The notes beneath the pieces were generated by a model. That model was not told the origin of the DNA, did no database searches, and saw nothing but the letters and a program-made list of their open reading frames with translations. 64,000 bases of DNA from Rhodococcus wratislaviensis (lineage in GTDB: Bacteria > Actinomycetota > Actinomycetes > Mycobacteriales > Mycobacteriaceae): positions 62,001 through 126,000 of the forward strand of contig NZ_UAUI01000004.1 in NCBI RefSeq assembly GCF_900455735.1, in the 5' to 3' direction. The position numbers were made by a program, and so were the translations under genes. Shown here in pieces: positions 44,397 through 48,221 of this stretch (position 1 is its first letter; each line of letters starts with the position of its first letter).

Positions 44397-45380
44397 CTAC
44401 TGCGCCGGCGTCGTGTTCCGCGTCTTGAGAAGGCTGGCGACGGTGGTCACTGCCAACACACCGAGGATGACGGCGAGCGAGAACACCGTCGACACCTCCG
44501 GCACGGCCACGTGCTCGCCGCCGTTGACGAAGCCCAGCGTGTTCTCGTGCAGGGCATGCAGCACGAGCTTGACGCCGATGAACGCCAGGATGATCGACAG
44601 GCCGTACGACAGGTACACCAGTCGGTCCAGCAGGCCGCCGATGAGGAAGTACAGCTGACGCAGACCCATCAGCGCGAACGCGTTGGCCGTGAAGACCAGG
44701 TACGGCTCCTGGGTGAGCCCGTAGATCGCGGGAATCGAGTCGAGCGCGAACAGCACGTCGGTGAATCCGATGGCGACCAGCGCGAGCAGCAGCGGCGTCA
44801 CGACACGCTTGCCGTTGATTCGCGTGACGAGCTTGTCGCCGTCGTAGGTGTCCGTGGTGGGGAGGATCTTCTTCGCGACGGCGACGATCTTGCTGTCGCG
44901 TTCCTCCTCCACCTCTTTCTCGTGCCCGTGATCACGTACGAGCGTGTACGCGGTGTAGATGAGGAACGCACCGAACAGGTAGAACACCCAGCTGTAGGCG
45001 TTGATCGCCGCGGCACCGACCCCGATGAAGATTCCGCGCATCACCAGCGCCATCACGATGCCGATCAGCAGTACCTTCTGCTGGTATTCCCGCGGCACCG
45101 CGAAAGTTCCCATGATGATGACGAACACGAAGAGGTTGTCGACCGACAACGCCTTCTCGGTGACGTAACCGGCGAAATACTCGCCGCCGTACTGACTTCC
45201 CCACAACCACATCACGACCAGGCCGAACAGGATGGCGATACCGATGTAGACCGACGACCAGAACGCCGACTCACGGAATGTGGGGGCGTGCGGTGTGCGC
45301 ACGTGCGCGAAGAAGTCGAAGACGAACAGTCCGAGAATCACCACACAGGTGATGACCCAGACCAGCGGTGACACATGCAT
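44397..45380 (-). CDS. TerC family membrane protein (probable manganese exporter)
   Basis: Integral membrane protein of 327 residues with about nine helices. Both family acidic motifs are present: E-K-A-L-S-V-D-N-L-F-V-F near residue 75 and F-T-D-V-L-F-A-L-D-S-I-P near 205. TerC/Alx-type proteins move Mn2+ out of the cell. The ATG at 45380 follows GGAGG at nine bases; a GTG at 45386 is too close to it. A yybP-ykoY manganese riboswitch and a hairpin hiding the GGAGG occupy the leader, which argues strongly for a manganese role. Confidence 0.93.
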   Translation of the reverse strand: MHVSPLVWVITCVVILGLFVFDFFAHVRTPHAPTFRESAFWSSVYIGIAILFGLVVMWLWGSQYGGEYFAGYVTEKALSVDNLFVFVIIMGTFAVPREYQQKVLLIGIVMALVMRGIFIGVGAAAINAYSWVFYLFGAFLIYTAYTLVRDHGHEKEVEEERDSKIVAVAKKILPTTDTYDGDKLVTRINGKRVVTPLLLALVAIGFTDVLFALDSIPAIYGLTQEPYLVFTANAFALMGLRQLYFLIGGLLDRLVYLSYGLSIILAFIGVKLVLHALHENTLGFVNGGEHVAVPEVSTVFSLAVILGVLAVTTVASLLKTRNTTPAQ

Positions 45381-45387
45381 GAACACA

Positions 45388-45420
45388 GACCTCCGGTAGA
45401 CCTAGCGGGTACCGGAGGTC
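45388..45420 (-). promoter_or_regulatory. Hairpin hiding the terC ribosome binding site
   Basis: Perfect 11-base-pair stem (45388-45398 with 45410-45420, 11-base loop). The GGAGG of terC (45394-45390) lies in the 3' arm on the minus strand. The 5' arm holds the CCTCC strand that also closes the manganese aptamer, so the two folds exclude each other. Confidence 0.88.
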
Positions 45421-45531
45421 TCTCCCGCCGCGCCGGAACCTCGTGTCCGAGCGACTGACAGCCCCGGATCGGCAATGGTGCCGATCGTGTTGACGATGCT
45501 GCCACAGAGGTGGGGATACTCCCCTCCAATT
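45414..45531 (-). ncRNA. yybP-ykoY manganese riboswitch
   Basis: On the minus strand the leader has GGAGG-GGAGTA (45527-45517) and, about 95 bases later, GAGAGA-CCTCC ending at 45414. These are the two conserved loops of the yybP-ykoY aptamer that meet to hold Mn2+, closed by a GGAGG/CCTCC stem P1. CGTCAACACGATC in the middle matches the conserved internal strand. The gene behind is terC, a classic partner of this class. Ends of the aptamer are approximate. Confidence 0.9.
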
Positions 45532-45590
45532 CGGTGACCATTCAACCACACTGCGCGTGAATCGCCCATTTCGGACACGCGCGCCGGGCC

Positions 45591-48221
45591 CTACTCCTGG
45601 TCGGACGGCGCCTCGTTCGGGTCACCGCCGCGGATCGACCACAGCAGACCGTCCAGTTCCTCGGGCTTGATGAGCACCTCACGGGCTTTCGAGCCCTCGC
45701 TGGGGCCCACCACTCCCCTGGTCTCCATCAGGTCCATCAGCCGGCCTGCCTTCGCGAAACCGACACGCAGCTTCCGCTGCAGCATCGACGTGGACCCGAA
45801 CTGACTGGAGACGACGAGTTCCACCGCCTGCAGCAGCACGTCCATGTCGTCGCCGATGTCGGGATCGACGTCCTTCTTCTCCCCGACCTTGGCGGCGGTG
45901 ACGCCCTCGGTGTACTCCGGCTCCGCCTGGTTCTTGCTGAAATCGACGACCGCGGAGATCTCTTCATCGGTGATGAACGCGCCCTGCAGGCGTGTCGGCT
46001 TGCCTGCGCCCATCGGCAGGAACAGCCCGTCACCCATACCGATCAACTTCTCGGCGCCCGGCTGGTCCAGGATGACCCGCGAGTCCGTCAGGGACGACGT
46101 CGCGAAGGCGAGCCGTGACGGCACGTTGGTCTTGATCAGACCCGTCACGACGTCCACCGATGGCCTCTGTGTAGCCAGCACGAGGTGGATACCGGCGGCG
46201 CGCGCCTTCTGGGTGATGCGCACGATCGCGTCCTCGACGTCACGCGGCGCGGTCATCATGAGGTCCGCGAGTTCGTCGACGATGGCGAGGATGTACGGAT
46301 ACGGCCGGTAGACCCGTTCACTGCCGAGCGGCGCGGTGATCTCACCCGACTTCACCTTGGCGTTGAAGTCGTCGATGTGGCGCACCCGGTTGGCCTGCAT
46401 GTCCTGGTAGCGCTGTTCCATCTCCTCCACGAGCCAGGCCAGCGCGGCTGCGGCCTTCTTCGGCTGGGTGATGATGGGGGTGATGAGGTGCGGAATGCCC
46501 TCGTAGGGCGTCAACTCCACCATCTTGGGGTCGATGAGGATCATTCGCACTTCGTCGGGTGTCGCACGGGACAGCAGCGACACCAGCATCGAGTTCACGA
46601 AGCTCGACTTACCGGAACCGGTGGAACCGGCGACGAGCAGGTGCGGCATCTTCGCGAGGTTGGCGCTGACGAAGTCGCCCTCGATGTCCTTGCCGAGACC
46701 GATCACCAGCGGGTGGTGGTCCTTGCGGGTGCTCGGGGCGGTGAGGACGTCGGCGAGGCGCACCATCTCCCGGTCCGAGTTGGGGACCTCGATGCCGACC
46801 GCGGACTTACCGGGGATCGGCGCGAGCAGGCGCACGTTGTCGGTGGCGACGGCGTACGCGATGTTGCGGGCGAGCGCGGTGATCTTCTCGACCTTCACAC
46901 CCGGTCCGAGTTCCACCTCGTAGCGGGTGACGGTCGGGCCGCGGGTGAATCCGGTGACGGCCGCGTCGATCTTGAACTGCTCGAGGACCTCGGTGATGGC
47001 CTCGATCATCGCGTCGTTGGCGGAACTGCGCTTCTTCGGCGGATCGCCCTCGATGAGCAGCGACGTCGGCGGCAACGTGTAGTCGCCCTCGATCACCCGA
47101 TCGGTCACGAATTTGTCGACGTCGGGCAGCGGTTCCGGTTCGGGTTCCGGCTTCGGGGCAGCGACCGGCTTGGCCTTGGCGCGCGCCGGTTTCGGCGCCG
47201 GGGCCGGCGACGGCACCGGTTCCGTGGCGGGCTCGGACTCCCAGAGCCCGAGCACCTCCGTCTTCGCGGTGTCGCTGACGTCGTACTCGTCGGTGGGATA
47301 GTTGTCGGCCGGGGCACCCCGGACCCCGGTCTTGAAATCGTCGACCGGGTAGCCGTCGGCATCGAACAGCGTGGGGTCGTATTCGCCGTCCTCGTAGTAC
47401 TCGCTGTCGTAGTCGGCGTAGTGGTCGCGGCCGAACGACATCCCGAAGTACGACTGCAGCTTGCCGGGCACCTCGCGGACCGTGGTTCCGGTCAGCAGCA
47501 GGACACCGAACAGTGCGGCCATCAGCAGCAGCGGCGCGGCGAGCCACACGGTCAGGCCGTCCGTCAGTGGTCCTCCCGCCGCGTACCCGACGAAACCGGC
47601 GCCGCGGGATCTGCCCTCGGCGTCGGTGGGCGACCCGGTCGCGATGTGCCAGAGACCGAGGGCAGGCAGACCGACCAGCAGCGACCCCAGGACCAGCCGC
47701 GGCCGGATCTCGGGTTTCGGTTCGGTCCTCATCAGGATCACCGCGACGGCGACACCGATCAGGGGCAGGACGCCGGACGCCCCACCGAACACGGCGCGGA
47801 CTCCGGTCTCGATCCACTCGCCCACCGGACCGCCTGCGGAGAACCAGATTCCGCCGGCGACGACGACGCTGATCGCGATCAACCCGAGCGCGATGCCGTC
47901 GCGCCGGTGACCCTGTTCGATCTCGGCAGCCTTGCCGACGGTGCGGGTGGTGGCCCCGACGCCCTTCGCCATGAGTGACCAGCCGGCACCGATCCCCCGG
48001 CCCACCGACTTGAGGGGGCCGGACGTCGACGACTTCTTCGCGGCGGGCCTTCGTGCGCCGCCGCGGGAGCCGCCACCGCGCGGCGAGGTCGACTTACGCG
48101 GAGTGCTGACCGTCCGGGTCGTGCGGGACTTGGGCTTGGACGGGGTCGAGCCGCCTCGCACGCCCGTCCTCGCCGTGGACGTCGTCGTGCTCGAACCGCG
48201 GGCGCTCGCCTTACCTGCCAT
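45591..48221 (-). CDS. ftsK: DNA translocase FtsK
   Basis: Septum-located DNA pump of 876 residues that moves chromosome ends apart at division. The N-terminal about 85 residues are Ser/Thr/Arg-rich and cytoplasmic; four helices follow (about 105-255). A Pro/Ala/Glu linker spans about 290-375. The motor domain has Walker A G-S-T-G-S-G-K-S near 537 and Walker B-type I-L-A-I-V-D-E-L-A-D-L near 640, and there is a C-terminal gamma winged helix (about 795-865). The ATG at 48221 is well supported. Same neighbourhood as Rv2748c. Confidence 0.96.
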   Translation of the reverse strand: MAGKASARGSSTTTSTARTGVRGGSTPSKPKSRTTRTVSTPRKSTSPRGGGSRGGARRPAAKKSSTSGPLKSVGRGIGAGWSLMAKGVGATTRTVGKAAEIEQGHRRDGIALGLIAISVVVAGGIWFSAGGPVGEWIETGVRAVFGGASGVLPLIGVAVAVILMRTEPKPEIRPRLVLGSLLVGLPALGLWHIATGSPTDAEGRSRGAGFVGYAAGGPLTDGLTVWLAAPLLLMAALFGVLLLTGTTVREVPGKLQSYFGMSFGRDHYADYDSEYYEDGEYDPTLFDADGYPVDDFKTGVRGAPADNYPTDEYDVSDTAKTEVLGLWESEPATEPVPSPAPAPKPARAKAKPVAAPKPEPEPEPLPDVDKFVTDRVIEGDYTLPPTSLLIEGDPPKKRSSANDAMIEAITEVLEQFKIDAAVTGFTRGPTVTRYEVELGPGVKVEKITALARNIAYAVATDNVRLLAPIPGKSAVGIEVPNSDREMVRLADVLTAPSTRKDHHPLVIGLGKDIEGDFVSANLAKMPHLLVAGSTGSGKSSFVNSMLVSLLSRATPDEVRMILIDPKMVELTPYEGIPHLITPIITQPKKAAAALAWLVEEMEQRYQDMQANRVRHIDDFNAKVKSGEITAPLGSERVYRPYPYILAIVDELADLMMTAPRDVEDAIVRITQKARAAGIHLVLATQRPSVDVVTGLIKTNVPSRLAFATSSLTDSRVILDQPGAEKLIGMGDGLFLPMGAGKPTRLQGAFITDEEISAVVDFSKNQAEPEYTEGVTAAKVGEKKDVDPDIGDDMDVLLQAVELVVSSQFGSTSMLQRKLRVGFAKAGRLMDLMETRGVVGPSEGSKAREVLIKPEELDGLLWSIRGGDPNEAPSDQE

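Follow-up and report, generated by a model that had tools for sequence, protein, structure and literature searches.

The terC gene of Rhodococcus wratislaviensis lies on the minus strand of the window, that is, the whole stretch of 64,000 nucleotides that was analysed, and the leader in front of it raises the question of whether the gene is controlled by a yybP-ykoY-type Mn2+ riboswitch and by what means. We consider that this leader is very probably such a riboswitch, acting as a translational ON switch. The motifs reported in a preliminary description of the locus all have the right letters and coordinates when read as minus-strand sequence (GGAGG, GGAGTA at 45522-45517, GAGA at 45422-45419, CCTCC at 45418-45414 and the GGAGG of terC). 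The aptamer occupies 45530-45410 on the minus strand, where the order of elements is GGAGG-GGAGUA-UCCC ... CGUCAACACG ... GGGA-GAGA-CCUCC-GGUA ... UACC-GGAGG-UCU ... AUG. The spacing from the GGAGG and the relatives of the gene point to the ATG at 45380-45378 as the terC start. An ftsK-type gene (45591-48221) precedes terC, and ftsK presumably adjoins cg2157, the terC locus of Corynebacterium glutamicum, as well. By the terC protein, the nearest named relatives are R. opacus and R. koreensis, at 98%, among the best 80 of 363 listed, where the own record of the organism was possibly omitted. The preliminary description had overlooked a third conserved piece, CGUCAACACG, together with the helices P3.1, P3.2 and P4. 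The features are as follows, with the loop L1 named after PMC6754395 and A1 denoting an alignment of 37 leaders.

44397..45380, minus strand: terC coding sequence (Pfam PF03741 TerC, E 1.6e-52)
45523..45527, minus strand: GGAGG, 5' strand of P1.1, partner 45418-45414; 97.8% of cells paired (37 leaders)
45517..45522, minus strand: GGAGTA, 5' strand of loop L1, invariant in A1
45513..45516, minus strand: UCCC, 5' strand of P1.2, partner GGGA at 45426-45423; 99.3% paired, both-side changes in 2 of 4 pairs
45494..45503, minus strand: 5' strand of P3.1, partner 45466-45457, from the RNAalifold consensus; both-side changes in 8 of 11 pairs
45486..45495, minus strand: L3 region CGUCAACACG; C36 G37 T38 C39 A40 and A43 C44 G45 invariant in A1
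45467..45486, minus strand: P3.2 hairpin, 45486-45480 with 45473-45467; both-side changes in 5 of 6 modelled pairs
45427..45455, minus strand: P4 hairpin, 45455-45446 with 45437-45427 and one bulged C; both-side changes in 6 of 7 modelled pairs
45419..45422, minus strand: GAGA, 3' strand of loop L1
45414..45418, minus strand: CCUCC, shared switch strand, either the 3' strand of P1.1 or the anti-ribosome-site
45387..45421, minus strand: sequestering hairpin, 12 perfect pairs and an 11-base loop
45390..45394, minus strand: GGAGG, ribosome-binding site of terC

In many Rhodococcus leaders, a TGTGGTTGAAT-like stretch that resembles a -10 region is located just upstream; a scan for sigma-70 promoters gave no hit.

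For comparison, we searched 28 genomes of the genus and 298 of the order for terC-type genes, with matches in 27 and 276 of them, respectively. The loci are best matches only, together with 80 named contigs (the best 80 of 363) and 40 upstream pieces, and they amount to 179 oriented loci, which include repeats of one genome and paralogues; the loci L001 and L002 lie outside this set. Both L1 strands were found by motif alone at 86 of the 179 loci, and at 92 when the loops were relaxed and P1/P2 pairing was required; at least 6 of 9 pairs were demanded, and all of these loci scored 8 or 9. Therefore, their presence is not due to chance. The carriers span six families of the order (f1, f2, f5, f14, f15 and f16). 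Thinning at 88% likeness left 59 non-redundant leaders, and A1 comprises 37 of these with aptamers of up to 118 bases (the window's own and 36 others), the 22 longer aptamers being left out.

From A1, RNAalifold recovered P1.1, P1.2, P3.1, P3.2 and P4 unaided, with compensatory changes in 22 of 32 pairs; when one extra P1.1 pair is counted, both sides change in 22 of 33 pairs across the 37 leaders. The cells were paired at 95.3% versus 78.0% in shuffles, none of 500 shuffles reached as high, and the value was at most 51.2% when the structure was slid. Since P1.1 and P1.2 took part in choosing the loci, the covariation they contribute (3 of 9 pairs) does not count as independent, while P3.1, P3.2 and P4 had no part in that choice. 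GGAGUA, GAGACC, CGUCA and ACG are invariant in all 37 rows. In the window, P3.1 contains one A.G mismatch, and P4 is also present when the aptamer is folded alone. The leader has P1.1, L1 (GGAGUA/GAGA) and P1.2, with the arms P3 (P3.1-L3-P3.2) and P4 extending from a multi-way junction. No conserved P2 is present in A1, and P2 seems not to be required for membership because E. coli alx also aligns without it; the leader, once called unusually compact, is so in a relative sense only. The fold stability of the leader against shuffles is moderate (z -2.17), and the support for the aptamer is comparative, not energetic.

The Rfam yybP-ykoY covariance model, RF00080, had been proposed as a check, and a failure to match as grounds for refutation. 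With Rfam 15 this outcome did occur: the model found nothing in the window at the gathering cut-off, and nothing over 401 bases with E allowed up to 10. Matches to DUF3800-XI and Ms_AS-8 in the window or leader were far under gathering and were judged to be chance. This check proved to be insensitive. Across 41 related genomes, RF00080 gave no match over its cut-off and two under it, both of which (L001 and L002) precede GDT1-type genes, not terC, the gene downstream of L001 being assigned by eye. On 20 related terC leaders there was one weak match, at 19.7 bits versus a cut-off of 45. Among 14 control genomes, it matched in four, including E. coli, and exceeded the cut-off in two. The alx and mntP leaders of E. 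coli are experimentally established Mn2+ riboswitches (PMC9603457). At neither region does RF00080 match at gathering: mntP reaches 41.6 bits (E 9.5e-9), under the cut-off of 45, and alx gives nothing up to E 1. Considering that the window behaves like the proven switch alx, the missing Rfam match means little. The consensus of RF00080 (177 positions) shows no P1.1 pairs in the alignments inspected, which may explain its poor reach. We also observed a weak match of RF02617 (Streptococcus sRNA 10) to an actinobacterial Mn2+ aptamer (L161:250-314, 24.0 bits, gathering 56). The RF02617 consensus contains AGGGAGUAG and CGUCAAUACG, and this family may itself be an Mn2+ riboswitch.

Two covariance models were of use, R1, which includes the aptamer of the window itself, and R2. 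Because R1 contains that aptamer, its score in the window (85.6 bits) was not used as proof, and R2 was built to avoid this from 23 leaders of three families, with the window's own family excluded. R2 ranked the window leader (45530-45410) first, at 72.7 bits and E 2.5e-13, followed by L002, L001, L185 (another copy, carried by the same genome as the window) and E. coli alx, the last at 41.8 bits and E 1.1e-6. With filters off only, R2 also reached E. coli mntP at 22.1 bits (E 0.0016), in an alignment that keeps L1 and GAGACC in register; with default filters mntP was absent. On 71 of the 87 motif-less loci, R2 found nothing with E allowed up to 1. R1 aligned E. coli alx through GGGGAGUA, CGUCA..UACG and GAGACC, missed mntP, and, with E limited to 1e-4, matched 130 of the 197 genomes from the class, counted as genome matches whatever the gene downstream. 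Judged by these models, the window leader is akin to E. coli alx, and weakly so to mntP. The proposal of an Mn2+-riboswitch-type aptamer before terC is thus borne out by a conserved, covarying fold and by an independent model match.

In terms of metal recognition, solved structures assign L1 to P1 and L3 to P3, and the Mn2+ site in them involves phosphates together with N7 of an adenosine that is invariant (PMC6754395). In the X. oryzae riboswitch, GAGACCAGGGAU constitutes the 3' half of L1 together with P1.1 (PMC6754395). Accordingly, GGAGTA and GAGA both belong to L1; the earlier description counted as separate conserved loops what are opposite strands of one. The true second loop, L3, had been missed, and it is present at 45495-45486. 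By analogy with these structures, CGUCAACACG in L3 would supply the second half of the metal site. The M_B-site residues of the L. lactis riboswitch are G9, U39, C40, A41, U44 and C45 (PMC9190785), and the UCA motif suggests that the A at 45491 is likely the counterpart of the Mn-sensing A41. If the Mn2+ reading is true, GGAGUA/GAGA and UCAACACG would be protected in an Mn2+-dependent manner, with 45394-45390 released.

The aptamer shares one strand with a hairpin over the ribosome-binding site. As had been proposed, CCUCC has two mutually exclusive uses, pairing either in P1.1 or over the terC site, and the hairpin is indeed perfect; it has 12 base pairs (45421-45410 with 45398-45387) rather than the 11 counted before. 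This exclusive pairing is conserved. A site and a start codon could be found in all but one of the 59 non-redundant leaders, and in each of these 58 the dinucleotide following the P1.1 strand pairs with that preceding the site. The seven-position core is fully paired in 51 of them, has one mismatch in two (L050 and L150) and has an extra site base in five (GGAAGG or GGGAGG); in L046, L048 and L165, AG replaces GG and the pairing is kept via CU. Covariation at the positions flanking the core was not significant (144 of 2000 permutations were as high), which is expected because both strands have other duties. Gene starts are known for 64 of the 92 aptamer-positive loci, and 61 of these have GGAGG. 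When aptamer-positive and aptamer-negative loci are compared, in counts that include near-identical species, a helix of 8-13 bp covers the site in 60 of the 61 (the exception, L050, has no helix over its GGAGG site) versus a helix of at least 7 bp in 0 of the 18 aptamer-negative loci with GGAGG, out of 75, three of which have 6 bp.

We propose the following mechanism. At low Mn2+, CCUCC and its flanks, including part of L1, would pair with the CCGGAGG over the terC site, and the site would be shut. When enough Mn2+ is available, L1 and L3 would dock around the ion, and the docked aptamer would stabilise P1.1 (GGAGG:CCUCC) during transcription, so that CCUCC is occupied, the ribosome site is left free and TerC can be made. 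Mn2+ as the ligand, the ON direction and a choice made during transcription are what we infer from the aptamer and its pairing. The energetics present a real weakness of this simple picture. Folded alone, the aptamer adopts the structure seen by covariation (-53.3 kcal/mol), and the sequestering hairpin by itself reaches -23.5 kcal/mol. By nearest-neighbour energies the whole leader favours the shut state by about 15 kcal/mol (-80.3 versus -65.2), with a median of 12 over 58 leaders. When the aptamer fold was imposed, 52 of the 58 leaders gained more than 0.1 in accessibility of the site, and in this constrained state the site is predicted to be open only 26% at the median. Docking of the metal-bound aptamer and the order in which the RNA is transcribed would have to offset the roughly 15 kcal/mol. 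In L. lactis, P1.1 nucleates in the exit channel, aided by Mn2+ and a paused polymerase (PMC11087558). The letters of P1.1, L1 and P1.2 can also form a hairpin of their own, GGGGAGUAUCCCC (window 45512-45524); it occurs in the minimum-energy fold of the shut state and may help to hold the metal-free form.

The stability of the hairpin over the site, very high at -23.5 kcal/mol, could suggest that it is the sole functional part, as an RNA thermometer or stability stem, and that the likeness to an aptamer is incidental. We regard this as scarcely credible, considering that five helices covary over the order, which refutes it unless the alignments are wrong, that independent models match both the leader and E. 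coli alx, and that only aptamer-bearing loci showed helices of at least 7 bp over the site. It is also improbable, though less so, that an intact aptamer senses another ion or condition in this lineage, for example Cd2+, Ni2+ or alkaline pH. Regulation of E. coli alx and of mntP does respond to alkaline pH too (PMC9603457). Against such a ligand, all 37 rows of A1 share the same core letters in L1 and L3, including the A of UCA that likely makes the N7 contact, and the two switch-bearing genes of the genome, terC and GDT1, belong to families tied to Mn2+ (PMC13274385).

A more serious alternative, which we still hold to be rather unlikely, keeps the Mn2+ aptamer and places the control mainly in Rho-dependent termination coupled to translation: a shut ribosome site would let Rho stop transcription, and Mn2+ would restore both processes. 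E. coli mntP does so (PMC11647493), and the leader in the window is without an intrinsic terminator; the platform had been called purely translational, which holds to the extent that no terminator-like site was found in 45300-45700. The short and highly structured leader would disfavour Rho loading. Even if it operates, this mode would add to the translational switch and not replace it, and the translational ON reading remains the one we prefer.

The same genome contains a second copy that looks like an Mn2+ riboswitch (L185; G000:C19:345800-345921, minus strand), located before a GDT1/UPF0016 gene (Pfam GDT1). Its platform comprises the segments A (CCUUCGGCC, in P1.1), B (GGCCGGAGGA), C (UCCUCCG) and D (the ribosome site GGAGGA), in which A:B pair over 7-9 bp, B:C over 6-8 bp and C:D over 6-8 bp. 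By script, 22 of the 27 GDT1 leaders of the genus (L216-L242) have four segments, four have two segments and one is without an aptamer end; L243, more distant and motif-less, was left out of the script. L241, a two-segment leader by script, has four segments by eye, which leaves three relatives with the short form, in which segment B is the ribosome site itself. Since pairing between A and D is possible as well, over 5-7 bp, the four-segment chain is not the sole possible reading. From their pairing, both forms would be predicted to act as ON switches.

The terC aptamer is missing from some relatives. Its motif is absent from 10 of 26 Rhodococcus orthologues (L015-L022, L024 and L025), including R. 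qingshengii and R. globerulus, and there the GGAGG of terC lies in no helix of at least 7 bp. The same ten genomes retain the L1/GAGACC motif at GDT1 (L228-L237), and the ten terC loci are natural switch-loss controls. None of the Nocardia terC loci (among L083-L141) has the aptamer motif. GGAGG is absent near the matched start in 57 of the 75 aptamer-negative loci, including loci of Nocardia, and either the start site or the regulation at those Nocardia loci must differ. The leader of a second terC-type gene in the genome of the window (L179, G000:C13:18680-19280) is also without the aptamer motif.

Compared with known systems, the leader resembles E. coli alx in its TerC gene family, in the core GGAGUA/GAGACC plus CGUCA..ACG and in having no aligned P2 hairpin, whereas alx has an AU-richer P1.1 and a longer P4 region. 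The translational ON platform is shared with E. coli mntP, in which the site is inaccessible without Mn and freed with it (PMC11647493), so that the translational ON mode, presented earlier as out of the ordinary, already has a precedent; mntP differs in an insert between P1.2 and P3.1, where a hairpin is possible, and in its gene family. With the crystal structures of L. lactis yoaB and X. oryzae, the leader shares the P1.1 switch helix and the metal core of L1 and L3 (PMC6754395, PMC9190785, PMC11087558), whereas those have a four-way junction with P2 and a terminator platform and the window has no conserved P2 and no terminator-like site. The terC leader of C. glutamicum cg2157, likely the orthologue of the window leader, belongs to the same gene family. 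It was listed under RF00080 at 49.13 bits with the Rfam release then in use, and its start was seen by RNA-seq 6 bases inside the 5' edge of the RF00080 match; it is described there as an Rfam prediction with a start site (PMC3890552). In Vibrio, terC and UPF0016-type (mneA) genes are predicted to be under Mn2+ switches and are Mn-induced (PMC13274385). In the open-licence literature we found no manganese riboswitch of Rhodococcus, and among open-licence titles and abstract beginnings for Mycobacterium and Actinobacteria, and among the matches listed for Corynebacterium (15 of 62) and Streptomyces (12 of 268), none showed that the function of an Mn2+ riboswitch from Actinobacteria had been tested. 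Because the translational ON mode of mntP, the Vibrio terC/mneA predictions and the RF00080 listing of cg2157 are already published, the terC leader is a well-supported further example of an established type of Mn2+ switch and no new switch type.

In summary, the terC leader of Rhodococcus and its relatives gains a function-bearing annotation. The Rfam Mn2+ model misses an actinobacterial branch, as R1 matched 130 of 197 genomes of the class versus none of 41 related genomes over the cut-off for RF00080. On balance, we favour the view that Actinobacteria have a large Mn2+ riboswitch branch mostly missed by Rfam, in which a P1.1 strand that doubles as the anti-ribosome-site would form an ON platform at terC in six families of one order, the sister leaders at GDT1 would turn ON through a longer four-segment chain, and one Rhodococcus lineage would have lost the terC switch and kept that of GDT1, providing natural knock-outs. 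The switch would be unusually legible, with one five-base strand deciding between the aptamer and the shut site and with switch-less relatives as controls.
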